DNA of 64,000 nt from NCBI GenBank assembly GCA_011391595.1, contig JAABQG010000004.1:1-64000 (forward strand), given 5' to 3'. How positions within the stretch are numbered: the first letter of the stretch is position 1; every line of letters begins with the position of its first letter. This stretch comes from Hydrogenophaga sp. GTDB lineage: Bacteria > Pseudomonadota > Gammaproteobacteria > Burkholderiales > Burkholderiaceae_C. The notes under the pieces were generated by a model. That model worked only from the letters and a program-made list of their open reading frames with translations, ran no database searches and was not told where the DNA came from. Below are positions 49,265-56,882 of the stretch, one piece after another. A program made the translations under genes and the position numbers.

Positions 49265-49918
49265 CGTGCATCACAGATCTTTCGATGAGCGCGACGCGCA
49301 ACTCGCCCGCGATGAATCTATGGGCTGGATGCATGGCATGCCCCAGGCCATCAGGACCCTTCGAACGCGGCCGGCCTGCCCACAACGCTGGGTTCCCCGC
49401 TGATGCGCGACTTCGTTCCGGCCGAAGACCGCCTTTCTTTCCTGGATCCGCTCAAGCTGGAGCCCGAAAACCTGCGACGCATCCAAATCGGATGGCTGGG
49501 CGGCCTCGAAGGCTACCTTCCGATGGAGCCCGGCATCCTTGAGGTATGTGAGCAGGGATTGCAGCGCCTCGCCGGCCTGGGTTGTCGGGTTGAGCCTGCG
49601 AAGCTGGGCATGGCGCCTGACCGCGTCTGGCAGGCATGATTGGTCTTGCCGTTCAATGTGAGCGAACGCTGGCCCGGTCGGATCAACGAGGTGGCCATGG
49701 ACACCTACCACCGCTGGATGGAAGTTGTGATCTACGCCACATTCGCCGGGTTGCCGTGCATCAGCATGCCCGCCGGATTCAGCCGGAACGGCTTGCCAAT
49801 GGGCCTGCAGGTCATTGGCAAGCCGCAGTGTGATTTTTCAGTGCTGCGACTGGCCCACGCCTATGAGCAGGTGTCGCAGGACGTGATTCAGAGAGCGCCG
49901 ATCCAGCAGGCCCGCTGA
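49265..49918 (+). pseudogene. decayed amidase (amidase-signature family)
   Basis: Pieces of one amidase remain in order. The first, SFDERDAQLARDESMGW plus MHGMPQAI, is followed by a shift near 49350; restoring one base gives AIKDPSNAAGLPTTLGS. The second piece runs to SPLMRDFVPAEDR, where the catalytic Lys-Ser-Ser core is missing, then LRRIQIGWLGGLEGYLPMEPG to DRVWQA and a TGA at 49637-49639. A third in-frame piece (LPFNVSERWPGRINEVAMDTYHRWMEV...) ends at 49918, with a further block missing before it. At least two deletions and one frameshift make it non-functional. The luxR-type gene overlaps its end by 31 bp. Confidence 0.82.
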
Positions 49919-50556
49919 ACCGCCGCGAGTTTGTTGTCAACCTTGAGTTTGGCCATGGCATTGGCCAGGTGGTAGTTCACCGTGCGTTCAGTGCATCCCA
50001 TGCGAACCGCGCACTGGCGCGCTGTCAGCCCATCAAATGCGAGCGCGAGGCATTCGCGCTCACGCGGGCTCAGAACACCACGCGCCTCGACCAGGGTCCG
50101 GCGCAAAAGTGGCCAGAGATTCAGCACCGACCATGCCAGCGCGGCAGCGTCAGACCGGTCGTGAAACTCACGTGGACTGAACAAGAAACATTCGAACGCC
50201 CGCCCTGCAGGCAAAGGGAACTCGACCCGGACCACGCTTTGGTAGCCATGCCCCAGCCAAAGGCGACGCCATCGACTTTGCGTTTCGAATGCTGACTTGG
50301 CGATATGCTGCCAGGCCACCAGCGGTGCATCAGAATCACGCCAGGGCGCGCCGAAATCCGGGCTTTCAGCCAAGGATCTCGCAGCCTCGATCAGTCGCGG
50401 TGGATGCAGGGCCAGCACCAGTCGCTGGTCCGGCGTGGCAAACGGATCAGGCCCAAGAACCACCACGGCTTCCACCGAGAACTCCCCCAGGGCCCGGAGC
50501 CATTCACTCAGCATTGCGTCGAGAGCGACACTGTCAAAGTTAACAGGGGGGTGCAT
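49888..50556 (-). CDS. LuxR-type regulator (LuxR solo) next to the signalling cluster
   Basis: This 222-residue protein has the size of AHL-type LuxR proteins. The C-terminal HTH at about residues 158-220 (LSPRERECLALAFDGL, CTERTVNYHLANAMAKL, VDNKLAAVQRA) follows the AHL-LuxR pattern. The N-terminal 150 residues look like a weakly conserved ligand domain (WLGHGYQSVVRVEFPLPAG, LFSPREFHD). No luxI gene is near. ATG 50556 (or 50562) is used; the ribosome binding site is weak. It is divergent from the histidine kinase across 86 bp. What ligand it senses is unknown. Confidence 0.82.
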   Translation of the reverse strand: MHPPVNFDSVALDAMLSEWLRALGEFSVEAVVVLGPDPFATPDQRLVLALHPPRLIEAARSLAESPDFGAPWRDSDAPLVAWQHIAKSAFETQSRWRRLWLGHGYQSVVRVEFPLPAGRAFECFLFSPREFHDRSDAAALAWSVLNLWPLLRRTLVEARGVLSPRERECLALAFDGLTARQCAVRMGCTERTVNYHLANAMAKLKVDNKLAAVQRACWIGAL

Positions 50557-50573: not shown

Positions 50574-50601
50574 ACCCTGACAATAACATTGAACAACAGG
50601 T
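50574..50601. promoter_or_regulatory. degenerate dyad in the luxR/histidine kinase divergent region
   Basis: The left half CCCTGACAAT matches 9 of 10 bases of the half-site CCCTGTCAAT in the perfect palindrome at 54305-54332. After AAC a weaker right half begins ATTGA and ends ACAGG. It is much less symmetric than that site. It could be a second, weaker site for the same regulator. Confidence 0.3.
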
Positions 50602-50642
50602 CTTCGTTTTTTCGGCGGGTTCCCTTTGTTGCGGAGAATCAT

Positions 50643-51950
50643 TTGACCAAACCGTTGTCATGGCAATGGCTGCTTGACCATGCCACCGCGAAACGGCTCC
50701 GGGAAGAGGTGCTGCTCGCGCCCCTTGAGCACATTCTTCACCCATCGCAGATTCGCCTCAAGTCGATCGGCGTTTTCTCGCTCATTGGTCAACCACTGTT
50801 CTACTGGATCTGGAGCGTCTGGCTGCCGCAGCCTTATGAAAACTTCTGGTTGCGCTGTGGCATGGCACTGCTCGGGGCGCTACTGATGTTGAACCGGTTT
50901 TCGAGTGCACCGTCCAGTCGCTCCACGCAGCATCTTTTCAACGCTATCGCCTTCATTGAACTGCCCCTGTTTTTCAGCTGGATGTATGTGATGAACGATC
51001 ACAACGCCGTTTGGATTGCCAGCTTGGCGACCGTCGTGCTCTGTTACTTCCACCTCACGGACTGGCGCATCGCCGCCGCCGGCTCCATCGCTGCCTTCCT
51101 GATCGGTACAACGCTGGCGGGCGCCATGACGCCGGCGGGCACAACCCAGCCCGTTGCCCATCTCGTCGTCCTTGCGTTTGCCTGGCTCACAGGCATGATG
51201 CTGGGCCTGTCCGGCGCCAACTTGCGTCGTGAAAGGCTCAGTCACTCACTGACCACCATCGGCATCATGGCGCACGAGCTCCGCACGCCACTTTCCACGG
51301 CAGGCCTGATCGCTGATGCGATCCTGATCGAGGCGAAACGCCAGCCCGACGGTCCAAGAGCAGGAAAGCTTGAGAAGCTGGCCCAGCGACTGCACGCCCT
51401 GGCGCGATCGATGAACCATCACATCGACATGCAGATTTCGAATGCACGTCTGTTGCAGCTTTCACAATACCAGGACCGCATCTCGGCGCGTGAACTGGTC
51501 GATGAAGTCATTGCTGCATACCCGTATCGGACTTCGCGCGAGCTTGACTGTGTTGACGTCATCATTCACAACGACTTCTGGTTCCGGGGTTCGCACACAC
51601 AGTTCTTGCGTGTACTGGACAACCTGGTAAAAAATGCCCTTCATTCGCTGCAAGCGTCGAGTTCGGTGCTGAACCCGGGCGATCTCCGCATTGAAGTGGG
51701 TAGCCGGCAGTCCGAGGGGCGCATCACGATTTCGGACAAGGGTATCGGCATCGACGCAGCCTCCCTGCAGCGGGTGTTCGAGCCCTTTTTCTCTACCGAC
51801 CAGGGCACTGGACATGGTCTGGGTCTGGCGTTCTGCAAACGCGTCATCCTTGCTGCCAATGGAAGCATCCGCGTAAAGTCTGAGCCGGCGGCCGGGGCAG
51901 TGTTCACAATCACCTTGCCGGTTGACAGGCAGGTCGCCGCAACGCAATAG
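50643..51950 (+). CDS. six-TM sensor histidine kinase (LqsS/CqsS-like)
   Basis: This kinase of 435 residues has six membrane helices in about residues 38-190 (first GVFSLIGQPLFYWIWSVWL, last HLVVLAFAWLTGMML), then a dimerisation and ATPase core. The phospho-acceptor is His211 in IMAHELRTPLS. The N box has Asn331 in DNLVKNAL, and the G boxes are ISDKGIGID and GTGHGLGLAFCK. It lacks a receiver domain, as do LqsS and JqsS. Start: TTG at 50643 with GGAG six nt upstream; an earlier TTG has no such site. It is likely to read an alpha-hydroxyketone signal. Confidence 0.85.
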   Translation: MTKPLSWQWLLDHATAKRLREEVLLAPLEHILHPSQIRLKSIGVFSLIGQPLFYWIWSVWLPQPYENFWLRCGMALLGALLMLNRFSSAPSSRSTQHLFNAIAFIELPLFFSWMYVMNDHNAVWIASLATVVLCYFHLTDWRIAAAGSIAAFLIGTTLAGAMTPAGTTQPVAHLVVLAFAWLTGMMLGLSGANLRRERLSHSLTTIGIMAHELRTPLSTAGLIADAILIEAKRQPDGPRAGKLEKLAQRLHALARSMNHHIDMQISNARLLQLSQYQDRISARELVDEVIAAYPYRTSRELDCVDVIIHNDFWFRGSHTQFLRVLDNLVKNALHSLQASSSVLNPGDLRIEVGSRQSEGRITISDKGIGIDAASLQRVFEPFFSTDQGTGHGLGLAFCKRVILAANGSIRVKSEPAAGAVFTITLPVDRQVAATQ

Positions 51951-51963
51951 GGGAACAAGTAAC

Positions 51964-52977
51964 ATGCCCTTTCCCATCTACCGTCGCCCGGGAGGCGTCG
52001 CCTTCCTTGACGATGATCCCGCCTACCTCGAAATGCTGGCGGAGGTGATGCCCGAACACTGGCATGTCAGGCTGTACCAGCGCCCTGCGGACTGCATCAA
52101 CCAGCTGCAGCAAGAGCCCCCACGCCACGACGCCGATACGTGGCGTCAGAAGGAAATACTGGACCGCTGGCGAGACGGCAACGCGCTGATCGCCCAACTC
52201 CTGGAATACTGGCGTGACGACGCGACGGCGCGCTTCGATCTCACAAAAGTCTGCGTTGTGGACTATTCAATGCCTGCAATGAACGGGCTTCAGGTCTTGG
52301 GCGAACTGGTGAACTGGTCTGGGTCGCGGGTGCTGCTGACGGGCCGCGCCGACGAGCAGATCGCGGTTTCCGCGTTCAACCAGGCCTTGATTGACCAGTA
52401 CATCCCAAAGCAGACGACGGAAATCGCCCGCCGGCTGACCGACTCCATCCAGCGCATGCTCGATGAGCCTCAGGCCGACCATTCACTGGCCTGGCGCGCC
52501 ACCCTCTCAAGGGAACAGATGGCCCTGCTTTCATCACCGGTCATTGGACGACAGCTCGCAACACTGGCCGATGAACAGCGATGGGTTGAACATGTGGTGC
52601 TTGGAGATCCATTCGGGGTTCTGGCGCTGGACGCCGCCGGCATGGCATTCTGGCTTCAGCTGGAGCCGGAAAACCGGCTGGAGGAACTGGCCGAGATGGC
52701 CGTGTGCCACGGTGTGGATGACGCCGGACTCGAGGACATCCGTTCGGGGAGACGCCTTTTCGATGTCGAGTTCCGGCTCGCACTAGGACTTGAAAATGCC
52801 GGACTTCATCCGGCCGTTCGTCTTGGTAGCGGCCCCGTTGTATTCGGCGCCCTCGTGCCGGTTCCCCAGGCGTTGTGTCCCGGCCTGTCGGGCAGCTATG
52901 AGCTCTTTTTGAATTCCCGTGGCCCCCGTGAGCTTGGGGACCAGCCACCGGCGGCGTTCCCCGCAGGTCAACGTTGA
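51964..52977 (+). CDS. response regulator with enlarged receiver (LqsR-like)
   Basis: This 337-residue protein has a receiver with the acidic pocket FLDDDP (Asp16-18), phospho-acceptor Asp100 in VVDYSMPAMNGL, and Lys149 in YIPKQ. The gap from Asp17 to Asp100 is about 40 residues longer than in CheY; the extra part is polar and helical. The C-terminal half (about 170-337) has no HTH and resembles no DNA-binding output I know; LqsR-type regulators share this layout. It follows the kinase by 13 bp and overlaps the 3' end of the synthase gene by 10 bp. Confidence 0.83.
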   Translation: MPFPIYRRPGGVAFLDDDPAYLEMLAEVMPEHWHVRLYQRPADCINQLQQEPPRHDADTWRQKEILDRWRDGNALIAQLLEYWRDDATARFDLTKVCVVDYSMPAMNGLQVLGELVNWSGSRVLLTGRADEQIAVSAFNQALIDQYIPKQTTEIARRLTDSIQRMLDEPQADHSLAWRATLSREQMALLSSPVIGRQLATLADEQRWVEHVVLGDPFGVLALDAAGMAFWLQLEPENRLEELAEMAVCHGVDDAGLEDIRSGRRLFDVEFRLALGLENAGLHPAVRLGSGPVVFGALVPVPQALCPGLSGSYELFLNSRGPRELGDQPPAAFPAGQR

Positions 52978-54245
52978 AGTTCACCAGACTGGTCACCATC
53001 ACGCTGCCGGCGTGCGATGGGCCAGTCCCATGGTCTGGCCAGTGGTGCGATATCGGCAGCGACGGCTTCAACATGATCGAGCTCGGCGTCCGCGAGTCCG
53101 GCATGCAGCGTCAGTCTCACCATCGTCCGGTTGCGACTGGTGGCAGGGGCACAAAACACCGCGCCAAAAACACCCCGCTCCTCCAGCAAGTCCCGCAACA
53201 CCATGGTCGCTGGCTCGGTACCCGACTCCAGCGCGATGATCTGCTCCGTGCCCTGTTGGATGGGATAGCCCAGTTCCGTCAGCCTGCGCCTCAGCCGCCG
53301 GGTGTTTTGCATCAGGCTCGCCCTGGCGGAATCGCTGCGCCTGATGACTTCGAGTGTCGCAGCCAGAGCGGCAATTTCGTGCGGCAGAAGGCAGGAGCTG
53401 AACATGTTCGGATAGCTGGTGCTCAGGACGTAGTTCCGGATCTCGGCTGGAACCGTCATGAACCCGGCACGACCGGCGAAGGCTTTGGCCAGGCTGGTCG
53501 TGATGAAGTGCACGCGGTGGCTCAGCCCCAGTTCAACACAAAGCCCGGCACCCTGTGGTCCATGCGTGCCCAGTGAGTGCGACTCGTCCACCAGGATCAT
53601 GCAGCCATGCCGCTCGGCCACCTCCACCATGGACTCCAGTGGACATACAGCACCCGTCGTGCTGTAGACAGAATCCACCACCACCACGCCCGGCCCATGA
53701 CGCTCGATCACGCGCGCCAGATGCAACGGGTCGTTGTGGCGAAAGGGATGCGACGGCGCTCCCGCCCTTCGAGCCCCTTCCCACAGGGAGGTGTGCGCCA
53801 GGCTGTCCAGATAAACCGGCGTTTGCGGATCGGCAATGGATTGCAGCAACCCGAGATTCGCGCTGTAGCCAGACTGGCAGATCAGTCCGTCATCCTTGCC
53901 GACCCACTGGGCAAGTGCCTTTTCCAGCGCGCGGGCGGGATGGGTGTCAAGCAGGAAAACGCTGGACTGGATCACGAACTCGCCGTCGCATTTGATGGCA
54001 TTGGACTGGGCCTGGACGATATCCGGGTGACCGGTCAGGTTCAGATAGTCGTTGCCGTTGAGACGAACAGCGTCCGGCCCTGCAACCCTTCCATGCAGAA
54101 GCGATCGTCCTCCCCAGAGGGAATCCCAGCGCTGGGTGAATTCGCGCTGCACCCGTTGGGCCAGATGAGCGCTGATCGGTGCGGCAGGACCGGGTGCTGA
54201 ATCGGAAAGGTTGTTCGTGAACTTCGGGCTTTCAATGACTTGCAT
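52968..54245 (-). CDS. alpha-oxoamine synthase, CqsA/LqsA-like autoinducer synthase
   Basis: This PLP enzyme of 425 residues is of the family that condenses an acyl-CoA with an amino-acid-derived substrate; CqsA and LqsA make the precursors of alpha-hydroxyketone autoinducers. It has NGNDYLNLTGHPDI, VDESHSLGTHGPQG with the PLP-ring aspartate, and the Schiff-base Lys254 in TTSLAKAFAGRAG. The ATG at 54245 has GGGAG upstream. Alternatives in this fold are KBL and BioF; the flanking LqsS/LqsR-like genes favour signalling. The start lies 60 bp from the palindrome at 54305-54332. Confidence 0.87.
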   Translation of the reverse strand: MQVIESPKFTNNLSDSAPGPAAPISAHLAQRVQREFTQRWDSLWGGRSLLHGRVAGPDAVRLNGNDYLNLTGHPDIVQAQSNAIKCDGEFVIQSSVFLLDTHPARALEKALAQWVGKDDGLICQSGYSANLGLLQSIADPQTPVYLDSLAHTSLWEGARRAGAPSHPFRHNDPLHLARVIERHGPGVVVVDSVYSTTGAVCPLESMVEVAERHGCMILVDESHSLGTHGPQGAGLCVELGLSHRVHFITTSLAKAFAGRAGFMTVPAEIRNYVLSTSYPNMFSSCLLPHEIAALAATLEVIRRSDSARASLMQNTRRLRRRLTELGYPIQQGTEQIIALESGTEPATMVLRDLLEERGVFGAVFCAPATSRNRTMVRLTLHAGLADAELDHVEAVAADIAPLARPWDWPIARRQRDGDQSGELQR

Positions 54246-54304
54246 GGGTTGCTCCCTGATGGTGAAACAATCCATTGAAGACGCCCCGATGCCTTTTCGG
54301 CACC

Positions 54305-54332
54305 TTACCCCTGTCAATATTGACAGGGGTAA
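54305..54332 (-). promoter_or_regulatory. perfect 28-bp palindrome upstream of the autoinducer synthase (lux-box-like)
   Basis: The half-site TTACCCCTGTCAAT is followed directly by its exact reverse complement. The core has the CT-N12-AG geometry, with CTGT and ACAG ends as in the Vibrio lux box. A TTGACA that could serve as -35 is inside the right half on the minus strand. There is no T-run, so it is not a terminator. It lies 60-87 bp upstream of the synthase ATG, in the 147-bp gap after the persulfide dioxygenase gene. It is a candidate target for the LuxR-type protein encoded at 49888-50556. Confidence 0.75.
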
Positions 54333-54392
54333 AACACCAAATCGTCAAAAAGACATTGCCAATTCAGGCAAAGCAATTCAAAAGTATGCGTG

Positions 54393-55517
54393 TCAACCTT
54401 GGCGCCAGGGCAGTCGGTGAAACCGCCAGCCGCCCTTTCGACCGCGTTGCGCGTGCTCATCCGGGTCGCCTTCGAAGCCTTCGAGAATGTTGTACGCCTC
54501 GATCCCCAATTCGGCTGCGCGCTTGGCTGCCGCCACAGAACGCACGCCGCTTCGGCACAACAAGACCAGTTTGCGTCCATCGGCCGCCGCCGCCTTGAGC
54601 CCATCGTCAAAAGCCGGATTCATCGCCATGCCGGGCCATTGCTTCCACGCCAGCGGCAAGGCGTCTGGCACGAAGCCGACCCACTCGCGCTCGGCATCAC
54701 TGCGCACGTCCACCAGCACGGCTTCACCCGACTGGGCCCACTGCCAGGCCAGAACCGGCGAAACGTCACCCGCGTAACCTTGCGCCTGTCGCGGGTGAAA
54801 CAGGTCACCACCGCCAGCATCATGGCGCAGACCCGAAGTCAAATTGGCAGGCACGGCCTCGTCCATCCGTCTGGGCCTGGGCAGATGCAGCCCGTCCATG
54901 ATGGCAACAAACTCCGCCAGTGACTTGCCTGCCACGCGCGCGTTGGTTCTCTTCTCGACGCCGATGGTCGAATGCGTGCGCCCCTGGTAGTCGTGCCCGG
55001 GCCAGACGATTGTCTCGTCAGGCAGCAAGAACAGCACCTGGGTCAAGCTGTGAAAGAGCGACTCGGCGCTGCCGGACTGGAAGTCGCTGCGCCCGCAGCC
55101 ATTGATCAGCAAGGTATCGCCGGTAAATACGTGCTGGGCGTTGGGCGACTTCCAGACATAACTCATGCTGCCAGCCGTGTGGCCGGGCGTGTCCAGGCAG
55201 CGAATCTTCTGACCGCCAAACTCGAGTTCGTCACCCTCGCGCAACTGCACGGCCGCAGTGGTGATCCCGCAGCCGTCAGGCGCCGCAGTGCGCGCGCCCG
55301 TGTGCTCTGCCAGCAGGCCAGCGCTGGTGATGTGGTCGGCGTGGGCATGTGTCTCCACCGTCCAGAGCAGCTTCAGGCCGTACTGGCGCAGCGTGGCAAG
55401 GTCCCGTTCGATCTGCTCGTCCACCGGGTCGATGATAAGGGCATCGCGCGTGGACTCATCAAACAGCACATAGGTGTAGGTGCTGGAGGCCGTGTCAAAA
55501 AGCTGGATCGGATTCAT
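54393..55517 (-). CDS. persulfide dioxygenase-rhodanese fusion (CstB-like)
   Basis: This 374-residue protein has an ETHE1-type metallo-beta-lactamase domain (about 1-240) and a C-terminal rhodanese domain (about 255-365). The metal site is THAHADH (His57, His59, Asp61, His62) with DTPGHTAGS and FTGDTLLINGCGRSD. The rhodanese cysteine is Cys321 in LLCRSGVRS. The family oxidises glutathione or CoA persulfide and handles thiosulfate. A CstR-like regulator gene lies 18 bp upstream, like the cst operon of staphylococci. The synthase gene follows on the same strand, so read-through is possible. Confidence 0.88.
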   Translation of the reverse strand: MNPIQLFDTASSTYTYVLFDESTRDALIIDPVDEQIERDLATLRQYGLKLLWTVETHAHADHITSAGLLAEHTGARTAAPDGCGITTAAVQLREGDELEFGGQKIRCLDTPGHTAGSMSYVWKSPNAQHVFTGDTLLINGCGRSDFQSGSAESLFHSLTQVLFLLPDETIVWPGHDYQGRTHSTIGVEKRTNARVAGKSLAEFVAIMDGLHLPRPRRMDEAVPANLTSGLRHDAGGGDLFHPRQAQGYAGDVSPVLAWQWAQSGEAVLVDVRSDAEREWVGFVPDALPLAWKQWPGMAMNPAFDDGLKAAAADGRKLVLLCRSGVRSVAAAKRAAELGIEAYNILEGFEGDPDEHAQRGRKGGWRFHRLPWRQG

Positions 55518-55535
55518 CGTGTTCCCAAGCCCCCG

Positions 55536-55781
55536 TCAGGCAAATTTTGTCAGCATCTCGGCAACGTGTTCGGCCGACTGGTCGCCCTGCTCGATCATGC
55601 AACCGACCATGGAGAAAAAGGACTTGTCGAGCGCCTTGCGGGCCGCTGCCATCTGTTGGGCGATCTTCTCGCAATCGGCATCGCCGTCGATCAGTTTCTG
55701 CAGGCCGCGAATCTGGCCTTCAATTCGTGCCAATCGGGCGCACAGCGCTCTCTTTTTTTCTGCGTCGACGATTCTGCTCAT
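55536..55781 (-). CDS. CsoR/CstR-family transcriptional repressor
   Basis: This 81-residue all-helical repressor has Cys14, Cys37 (DADCEK) and Cys61 (VGCMIEQ). CsoR needs a Cys-His-Cys site; here no His occupies the middle position and the two Cys match the persulfide-sensing CstR pattern. The start is ATG 55781 with GGAA 7 nt upstream; an ATG two codons earlier is closer to it. It is followed at 18 bp by the persulfide dioxygenase-rhodanese gene, which it probably controls. Operator not identified. Confidence 0.84.
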   Translation of the reverse strand: MSRIVDAEKKRALCARLARIEGQIRGLQKLIDGDADCEKIAQQMAAARKALDKSFFSMVGCMIEQGDQSAEHVAEMLTKFA

Positions 55782-55967
55782 GGTCATTTCCAGGTTAAGT
55801 CCAGTTGGCGTCCCAGGCAGATGATAGCTTTGCCCCGACAGCCACCCGATGCCACATTTCAATTTTTCGGAGATCGAGCGGGATCGCCAGCCTGGACCAT
55901 CAATCCGTTCTCCAGACTTCAAGGCGCAGAGACTGCCCCCCCGAGCATCACTGGCAATAGGTTGGCA

Positions 55968-56018
55968 GTGACAGCAATGGCCTGTCAGGTTAATATTGAC
56001 GTTTACGTAAACGTCAAT
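55968..56018 (+). promoter_or_regulatory. promoter with overlapping 24-bp palindromic operator, upstream of ppk2
   Basis: A GTGACA -35 at 55968-55973 and a TAATAT -10 at 55991-55996 are separated by 17 bp. The palindrome at 55995-56018 has the half ATTGACGTTTAC followed by its exact reverse complement, covering the end of the -10 and the expected start point near 56003. That is the position of a repressor site. From memory, TTTACGTAAA-type centres are used by LiuR regulators of branched-chain acid catabolism; this is not checked. AAGGAG at 56025-56030 follows. Confidence 0.7.
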
Positions 56019-56036: not shown

Positions 56037-56882
56037 ATGCCCCCCACTGTTGGTGCGAGCAAGGCCCTGCTGGCCCCGTGGCAACCGCCTGTGAAAGGGG
56101 ACGGCAAGCCGTTTTCGCTCAGCGGGCTAAAGGCTTCAGCCAAACCGTATTCCAATGGCGACAAGGCCGAGGGCAAGGATGCCGTCGAGGACCTGGCCAT
56201 CGAGATCGACGCGTTGCAGAACCTGTTCTATGCCGACCGGCGCTACAAATTGCTGGTGATCCTGCAGGGCACGGACACATCGGGCAAGGACGGCACCATT
56301 CGCGGCGTTTTTGGCCGCACGAGCGCGCTGGGCGTGCACACCGTGGGCTGGAAGGCCCCCACCGAGCACGAGCGGGCGCGCGACTACCTGTGGCGCATTC
56401 ACCAGCAGATGCCCGCCGCGGGCGAGGTGATGATCTTCAACCGAAGCCACTACGAAGACGTGCTGGTCCCGGTGGTCAATGGCTGGATCACGCCCGAACA
56501 GGCGCGACAGCGCTTCGCGCAAATCAATGACTTCGAGCGCCTGCTGGCAGAGACCGGTACGGTCATCCTCAAATTCATGCTGCACATCAGCTTTGAGGAA
56601 CAAGGGCAGCGACTGCAGGAGCGGGTGGACGACCCGACCAAGCGCTGGAAGTTCAGTCTGGGCGACCTCAAGGTGCGCGAGCAATGGGCCGAGTACCAGC
56701 AGGCCTATGAAGCGCTGCTGGGCGCGACCAGCACGCCCTGGGCGCCGTGGACTGTTGTGCCTGCAGACTCCAAGACCCACCGCAACCTGATGGTCGCCAC
56801 CGTGGTGCGCGACACCCTCAAGGCACTCGACCTGCGCTACCCGCCTGACGATCCGGCCTTGAAGGGCCTGAAGATCAAATAA
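56037..56882 (+). CDS. ppk2: polyphosphate kinase 2 family protein
   Basis: PPK2 enzymes transfer phosphate from polyphosphate to nucleotides. The 281-residue protein has Walker [13 protein letters not shown] at 77-87, the PPK2 block [22 protein letters not shown] (Walker B, ending at 141), and a lid region around [15 protein letters not shown]. The start is ATG 56037 with AAGGAG six nt upstream. It precedes icmF by 38 bp on the same strand and probably shares its promoter. Polyphosphate-driven GTP or ATP supply to the icmF GTPase is an attractive but unproven link. Confidence 0.9.

Follow-up and report, generated by a model that had tools for sequence, protein, structure and literature searches.

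A conserved lux-type palindrome upstream of an lqsA-type synthase gene and a second box inside the neighbouring luxR gene

The Lqs-type cluster and its palindrome

The window (the whole stretch of 64,000 nucleotides that was analysed) contains a gene for an alpha-hydroxyketone autoinducer synthase of the lqsA/cqsA type, together with genes for a sensor histidine kinase, an LqsR-like response regulator and a LuxR-type regulator (Table 1). The sole solved relative listed for the response regulator was PDB 6sy9, which we take to be LqsR, and Pfam revealed no DNA-binding domain in this protein. With an LqsA-type synthase, a sensor kinase and an LqsR-like regulator, the cluster belongs by gene content to the Lqs/Cqs type. 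Synthase, kinase and LqsR-like regulator are adjacent in the Lqs/Cqs/Jqs clusters of Legionella, Vibrio and Janthinobacterium, as they are here; in contrast to these, the cluster in the window adds a LuxR-type gene, a lux-type box and a leader hairpin covering the Shine-Dalgarno (SD) sequence. Clusters with lqsA-like genes have been noted in Polaromonas in the available text of PMC3376566.

Table 1. Coordinates of the cluster genes, boxes and leader elements in the window
Feature	Position	Strand	Evidence or remark
LuxR-type regulator, GerE domain, AHL-receptor-like N-terminal fold	49888..50556	-	profile, predicted structure
Second box, luxR codons 4-9, CCT GTT AAC TTT GAC AGT (PVNFDS)	50530..50547	-	one mismatch to core
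LqsS/CqsS-like sensor histidine kinase, divergent from luxR, start codon uncertain	50589..51950	+	HATPase_c
LqsR-like response regulator	51964..52977	+	receiver domain; PDB 6sy9 E 3.6e-14
lqsA/cqsA-type alpha-hydroxyketone autoinducer synthase	52968..54245	-	NF005526, 567.9 bits, cut-off 428
Leader hairpin AUGG...SD...CCAU over Shine-Dalgarno and start codon of lqsA	54244..54275	-	covariation
TTCAATGG block common to lqsA leaders	54272..54279	-	fourth base 54276, 42.5 bp from dyad centre
Candidate lqsA operator, perfect 14-bp dyad TTACCCCTGTCAATATTGACAGGGGTAA	54305..54332	.	dyad scan, conservation
Conserved core CTGTCAATATTGACAG within the dyad	54311-54326		CCC/GGG flanks
MBL-rhodanese and CsoR-like genes, disfavoured owners of the palindrome	54393..55784	-	linkage

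In the gap of 147 bp (54246-54392) between lqsA and the MBL-rhodanese gene (54393-55517, minus strand), the preliminary description had located a perfect 28-bp palindrome with the geometry of a lux box and had judged it to be far beyond chance. Our analysis confirmed all three points: TTACCCCTGTCAATATTGACAGGGGTAA at 54305-54332 is an exact dyad with 14-bp arms, it fits the CT-N12-AG pattern of a lux box of about 20 bp, and the 28-mer gave no match with up to three mismatches in 100 dinucleotide shuffles. A simple calculation with uniform base frequencies puts the expectation for a 14-bp dyad at any place within 64 kb at about 2e-4. A scan for uninterrupted dyads with arms of at least 9 bases detected two in the window, of which this is the longest. 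The other one, ATTGACGTTTACGTAAACGTCAAT (55995-56018, arms of 12), lies just upstream of a PPK2-like gene starting at 56037 and probably serves a different regulator as its operator. With up to three mismatches allowed, the window's genome has a single copy of the 22-bp core; the 18-bp pattern CCTGTCAN4TGACAGG is present in two copies.

Conservation of the box and of the lqsA leader

Relatives of lqsA were taken from 40 loci of named genomes and from the 30 of 299 family genomes with a match over the family cut-off. Upstream reads of up to 400 bases per lqsA gave 71 entries, among which are duplicates and the copies of the window itself; an Omnitrophota locus (L041, 30% identity) was left out as it fell below the 1e-60 cut-off. 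The exact core CTGTCA-N4-TGACAG was present in 53 of the 71 upstream regions. Duplicates were merged before counting, which left 45 distinct promoters, among them sequences from Polaromonas, Ramlibacter and Hydrogenophaga, or 44 distinct leaders when keyed on the part after the core. The preliminary description had named a lack of conservation in relatives as a refutation; its proposal passes this test, as the core recurs in these 45 lqsA promoters. In this set, which was chosen for the exact 16-bp core, a CCC/GGG flank is common, but conservation does not extend to the outer TTA/TAA; the biological unit is, on this alignment, therefore about 20-22 bp long and narrower than the 28-bp palindrome. 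Judged by its conservation, the palindrome is very probably a genuine target of a regulator, placed ahead of a signal-synthase gene.

The dyad lies 3' of the MBL gene on the same strand and would fold, so that it might also be read as a terminator or RNA hairpin of that gene. It lacks a T-run, as had been pointed out before, the MBL gene is absent from 10 of the 25 long loci with an exact core (present in 15), and the fixed spacing is to the lqsA leader, all of which makes this explanation extremely improbable.

The 18 entries without an exact core include distant homologues (L037, L038, L039, L070 and L071), contig-edge cases with an upstream region too short to judge (L017/L042) and an lqsA without any other cluster gene around it (L064). 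Ten entries represent eight distinct promoters of clustered lqsA genes with a degenerate box (one mismatch in L012, L043 and L065, two in L003 and L069, three in L045 and L060) or with no box within three mismatches (L006). LuxR was seen at all eight of these loci except L012, whose contig ends. Because of these eight promoters the box is, as far as the compared sequences tell, not indispensable for a clustered lqsA.

The spacing between the box and the block common to lqsA leaders (TTCAATGG in the window) is nearly fixed. Counted from the start of the core, TTCAAT is found at an offset of 47 bases in 35, of 46 bases in eight and of 48 bases in one of the 44 distinct box-bearing leaders, three of which have TCCAAT in its place. 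Its fourth base, a conserved A, is 42.5 bp away from the dyad centre in 35 of the 44 leaders. A lux box canonically lies 42.5 bp from +1 as well, and 54276 is a candidate transcription start of lqsA. Among the eight promoters without an exact core, six keep TTCAAT and two (L045 and L060, from G113 and G206) do not; the latter two have a three-mismatch lqsA box, yet their luxR box (see below) has one mismatch.

The leader can form a hairpin. Its AUGG... arm begins at the base that follows the fourth base of TTCAAT and pairs with ...CCAU at the lqsA start codon, and the SD sequence is enclosed in most leaders, with L028, L052 and L068 as clear exceptions among the folds inspected. Own arms yielded -13.6 kcal/mol compared with -9.1 kcal/mol (sd 0.44) when arms were swapped between species, and the observed value was reached in 0 of 2000 permutations; the result was unchanged with 30, 22 or 16 representatives (0 of 5000 each). 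Control leaders, with arms taken at a fixed distance, showed no pairing excess, the observed value being reached in 1660 (luxR), 2115 (response regulator) and 4392 (MBL) of 5000 permutations. Since the arms covary, transcription of lqsA is expected to start close to the box and no later than the hairpin. Such a transcript would fold the hairpin over the ribosome-binding site and start codon, which may provide a second layer of control. No conserved -10 hexamer was detected before the proposed start in the box-bearing leaders. TTCAAT could itself be a -10 hexamer; in that case the transcript would lack most of the 5' arm of the covarying hairpin, which argues against this assignment.

As its centre is 42.5 bp upstream of the conserved A, the box would take the class-II position of a LuxR-type activator, from which we infer activation of lqsA. 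A LuxR-type protein may also bind the palindrome but repress lqsA in an EsaR-like manner. The box overlaps the -35 region if transcription starts at 54276, and a box inside luxR would equally suit a repressor; according to the available text of PMC5601948, LuxR of Vibrio fischeri represses ainS and a lux box overlapping the -35 region is required. However, the fixed TTCAAT spacing (35 of 44 leaders) suggests an activator-dependent promoter, and so does the proposed start, for which no -35/-10 pair can be recognised; repression of lqsA is a possible but unlikely alternative to activation.

The LuxR-type protein and the box in its own gene

The LuxR-type protein of the cluster (49888-50556) is very probably the binder of the palindrome, judging from gene linkage and from a second box in its gene. 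A LuxR match was found in 31 of the 32 named loci with an exact box, and the exception (L035) ends soon after the kinase gene; four of the matches (L025, L026, L029 and L030) are partial or broken. The partial match of L029 directly follows lqsA in a locus from which kinase and response regulator are absent, and the dyad arms of this locus are 14 bases long, the same as those of the window. Searches of the 299 family genomes (alignment A1, E <=1e-30) detected LuxR in 35, including one weak (G070) and one partial (G278) match, and in 27 of the 30 genomes with lqsA. The exact 18-bp motif was present in 29 of the 299 genomes, namely in 21 of 35 with LuxR compared with 8 of 264 without it (Fisher p 7e-17, ignoring relatedness), or, sorted by lqsA, in 18 of 30 with the gene compared with 11 of 269 without it (p 6e-14, also ignoring relatedness). 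The three genomes with lqsA and no LuxR match (G009, G093 and G129) lack a box in the 400 bases before lqsA, where the best candidates show 4-5 mismatches.

LuxR and response regulator are nearly always neighbours, with L029 and its partial LuxR match as the exception, so that co-occurrence hardly separates the two. Because six lqsA-less genomes keep the luxR-response regulator pair, and a seventh (G070) does so weakly, the LuxR-type protein need not, by gene content, answer to the product of LqsA. In two loci, L135 (G271) and L137 (G162), lqsA and the kinase gene are absent, luxR and the LqsR-like gene are kept, and a box lies just past the end of the response-regulator gene, which is the place of lqsA and its box in other genomes.

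Two other owners of the site were considered. CsoR-type sites resemble the TACCCC/GGGGTA arms of the palindrome, and the gene of a CsoR/CstR-like repressor (55536-55784) is the second one upstream of lqsA; binding by this protein, which the preliminary description had named as an alternative, would link lqsA to sulfane-sulfur stress. The CsoR gene does not travel with the site, as it was found within the locus in 4 of the 25 box-bearing loci that extend 4.9 kb or more upstream, and the TA of the arm is not conserved, whereas the core recurs in luxR. This neighbour is thus disfavoured and a very improbable binder. An unlinked regulator might also recognise the core, with the LuxR linkage being incidental, since 8 of the 264 genomes without a window-type LuxR carry the 18-bp motif. 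Five of these eight were searched for LuxI, and two (G165 and G257) gave matches over the cut-off. In both genomes the motif (L140 and L134, respectively) lies near luxR-like genes, as read from their translations, which indicates that the 18-bp motif overlaps AHL-type lux boxes. Furthermore, the box is placed inside luxR and accompanies luxR where lqsA is missing, and we regard an unlinked regulator as improbable.

PF00196 (GerE/LuxR HTH, C-terminal) was detected in 27 of 27 LuxR members, and an AF2 model built from 27 orthologues reached a mean pLDDT of 88.4. The Foldseek ranking was led by QscR, RhlR and TraR, followed by SdiA; full-length TM-scores were low (0.34-0.52, query-normalised, for the top 33 LuxR-type matches) and rmsd was large, and we take these scores to reflect a difference in domain placement in the model. 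VIA gave Z 13.8 over 207 residues for QscR, and Z 11.3 for CepR2 and 10.0 for LasR with the N-terminal part, which is consistent with an AHL-receptor fold. The fold does not prove a ligand, because full-length TM-scores are low and a sensor-kinase domain, 3hcy, scores alike (Z 11.4). The autoinducer-binding family, PF03472, was not among the 14 Pfam families matched by the 27 LuxR members at E <=10. Of the 35 genomes with LuxR, 31, the window's included, were searched for LuxI (PF00765); none had a match over the cut-off, and four had matches below it. The same search gave no signal in 14 control genomes. By these sequence tests the LuxR-type protein of the window is a LuxR solo. An order-wide search found this LuxR in 4 of 399 genomes, all of them from the window's family.

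The second box occupies codons 4-9 of luxR. After exclusion of matches not reaching the gene start, 56 distinct orthologues remained, in which these codons follow the rule CCT GTY AAC TTT GAC AGY (PVNFDS). Compared with the core, they showed no mismatch of 12 in 19 genes, one in 29, two in 6 and three in 2, so that 48 of 56 have a box with at most one mismatch. Among the eight genes with a degenerate box, that of G099 (L155) has three mismatches although its lqsA box is exact. Proline is encoded by CCT in 55 of 56 orthologues, compared with a share of 7.8% in the gene body; serine is AGY in 56 of 56 and never TCN, and phenylalanine is TTT in 49 of the 50 orthologues that encode it. Ranked by codon bias among 110 conserved columns of 54 aligned genes, these proline, serine and phenylalanine positions came first, third and fourth, the second rank being held by Ser143 outside the box. 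Asp8, inside the box, is GAC in 51 of 51, whereas Asp13, just outside, is GAC in 36 and GAT in 13. The variants PVKSDS and PVNLDS alter the protein and keep both half-sites exact; PVRTAS loses one base of the core. Selection on the hidden box is hence visible at the level of codons.

Translation initiation regions favour AT-richer codons, and CCT, TTT and AGT are AT-richer than the usual ones, so the pattern might reflect selection for weak mRNA structure at initiation with no operator involved. CCA is equally AT-rich and equally rare in the gene body, yet it occurs in none of the 56 genes. Selection for AT-rich codons would likewise fit poorly with an Asp8 that is never GAT next to a mixed Asp13, with a serine that is never TCN, or with variants that change the protein while the dyad stays exact, and we see little chance that it explains the pattern.

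The retention of the box in codons 4-9 with such extreme codon bias suggests an operator for luxR autoregulation. A TATTGT-/CATTGT-like block precedes the luxR box by 36-39 or 45-49 bases in 54 of 56 genes, which suggests that the box is downstream of the luxR transcription start. From this position, downstream of the probable promoter, a bound protein would act as a roadblock and repress luxR. The luxR-kinase intergenic region was scanned in 22 loci up to 6 bases into luxR, and thus short of the in-gene box; no lux box with zero to two mismatches was detected there, and one had three (L022). In the lqsA-less loci L171, L172, L173 and L174 (G055, G252, G174 and G069), which have the luxR-response regulator pair and no kinase, the best box lies inside the luxR frame at its start, being exact in L171, with one mismatch in L173 and L174 and with three in L172.

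Further sites, related systems and a proposed role

Genes next to extra 18-bp sites in LuxR-bearing genomes are candidates only for members of a regulon, as they were called with a crude ORF caller, and several sites fall within predicted ORFs or at a great distance from a start. A Pfam family was found for 14 of 20 neighbouring proteins and none for 6. Pfam-checked neighbours are a RebB R-body gene (L107), ShlB-type transporters (L109 and L116), a phosphonate-binding protein (L112 and L119), GH5 (L117 and L120), an NDH-2-like oxidoreductase (L108), an M16 peptidase (L123 and L124), TctC (L121), RHS repeats (L128) and an alpha/beta hydrolase (L104); in L114, L110, L113, L126 and L136 the neighbours were assigned by look-alike translations. 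The second site of the window's genome lies before a gene whose match to catalase stays below the threshold (23.6 bits, cut-off 25). A lux-type box near RebB-family R-body genes in L107 and L114, Pfam-checked in L107 only, suggests signal control of R-bodies. In L123, L124, L126 and L136, the box stands beside the end of an M16 peptidase gene and GCTGTCAC is repeated further on, possibly marking a small gene or RNA that the annotation lacks.

Each of the three elements, LuxR solo, lux box and Lqs cluster, is of a known kind; their combination and the in-gene operator are, as far as we found, undescribed. Open-access full texts (including PMC3566124, PMC3376566, PMC10134790, PMC4338825, PMC13220807, PMC10653808, PMC5289986, PMC5080296 and PMC5601948) gave, in their accessible parts, no description of a link between LuxR and lqs genes or of an operator inside luxR, and the term "LuxR" is absent from the available main text of PMC3566124 (on Janthinobacterium HH01) and of PMC10653808 (on PhcX). 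The accessible part of PMC5080296 mentions luxR solos in some strains, untied to jqs, as well as a motif named JAI-1 (TTGA-N6/7-TCAA) that precedes jqsA and its targets. This motif resembles our case as a palindrome upstream of the same synthase class and of other regulated genes. It is different in sequence from the site in the window, and it was found in 1 of the 71 lqsA upstream regions, which is not that of the window; the sole bearer, L064 (G009), belongs to a genome without a LuxR match.

LuxR solos such as QscR and SdiA share with the protein described here the GerE domain, an AHL-receptor-like fold, a CT-N12-AG dyad and the lack of a detected LuxI. In contrast to them, the LuxR of the window is linked to a non-AHL synthase, has no match to a Pfam autoinducer domain and carries an operator-like box in its own frame. 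In Vibrio fischeri, a LuxR-type protein controls via lux boxes a synthase other than its own LuxI, as it would here; however, AinS makes an AHL, the sites lie upstream of the synthase gene and no in-gene box is described in the available text (PMC5601948). The Ralstonia PhcX of the LqsR family illustrates that LqsR-type regulators can detach from lqsA (PMC10653808, in the part available), as in the lqsA-less luxR-response regulator pairs; the partner retained here is a LuxR with a hidden box and not the phc genes.

We consider it likely that a dedicated LuxR-type regulator in an Lqs-type cluster has its operator in the palindrome; this regulator would activate lqsA and repress its own gene. 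Conservation, co-occurrence and the second box in luxR speak for the earlier proposal of a LuxR-type protein that acts through a lux-type box to control a non-AHL synthase; we infer binding, its sign and the start sites at lqsA and luxR from the same comparisons. A LuxR dimer would bind CTGTCA-N4-TGACAG; its signal may be an alpha-hydroxyketone or may lie in the state of the LqsR-like response regulator.

A wider reading, which is possible rather than probable, is that Lqs signalling in these betaproteobacteria has the LuxR-type protein as its DNA-binding output. This protein would sense the alpha-hydroxyketone directly or be gated by the LqsR-like regulator, drive a regulon comprising lqsA and, as candidates, genes such as those for R-bodies and two-partner secretion transporters, and repress itself from its own first codons. 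Such a system, if it exists, would join the LuxR and Lqs/Cqs architectures of quorum sensing in a hybrid. According to the available text of PMC10653808, LqsR-type regulators have a degenerate GGDEF-like output domain of unknown function, and for this reason the route from alpha-hydroxyketone signalling to promoters via these regulators is unclear. A LuxR tied to the Lqs cluster by gene order, by the synthase box and by the box in its own codons makes such an output arm directly testable, and Polaromonas, Ramlibacter and Hydrogenophaga are genera with cultured members for this purpose. PVNFDS would also be a protein motif apparently kept for its DNA, which bears on how N-terminal conservation in regulators is read.
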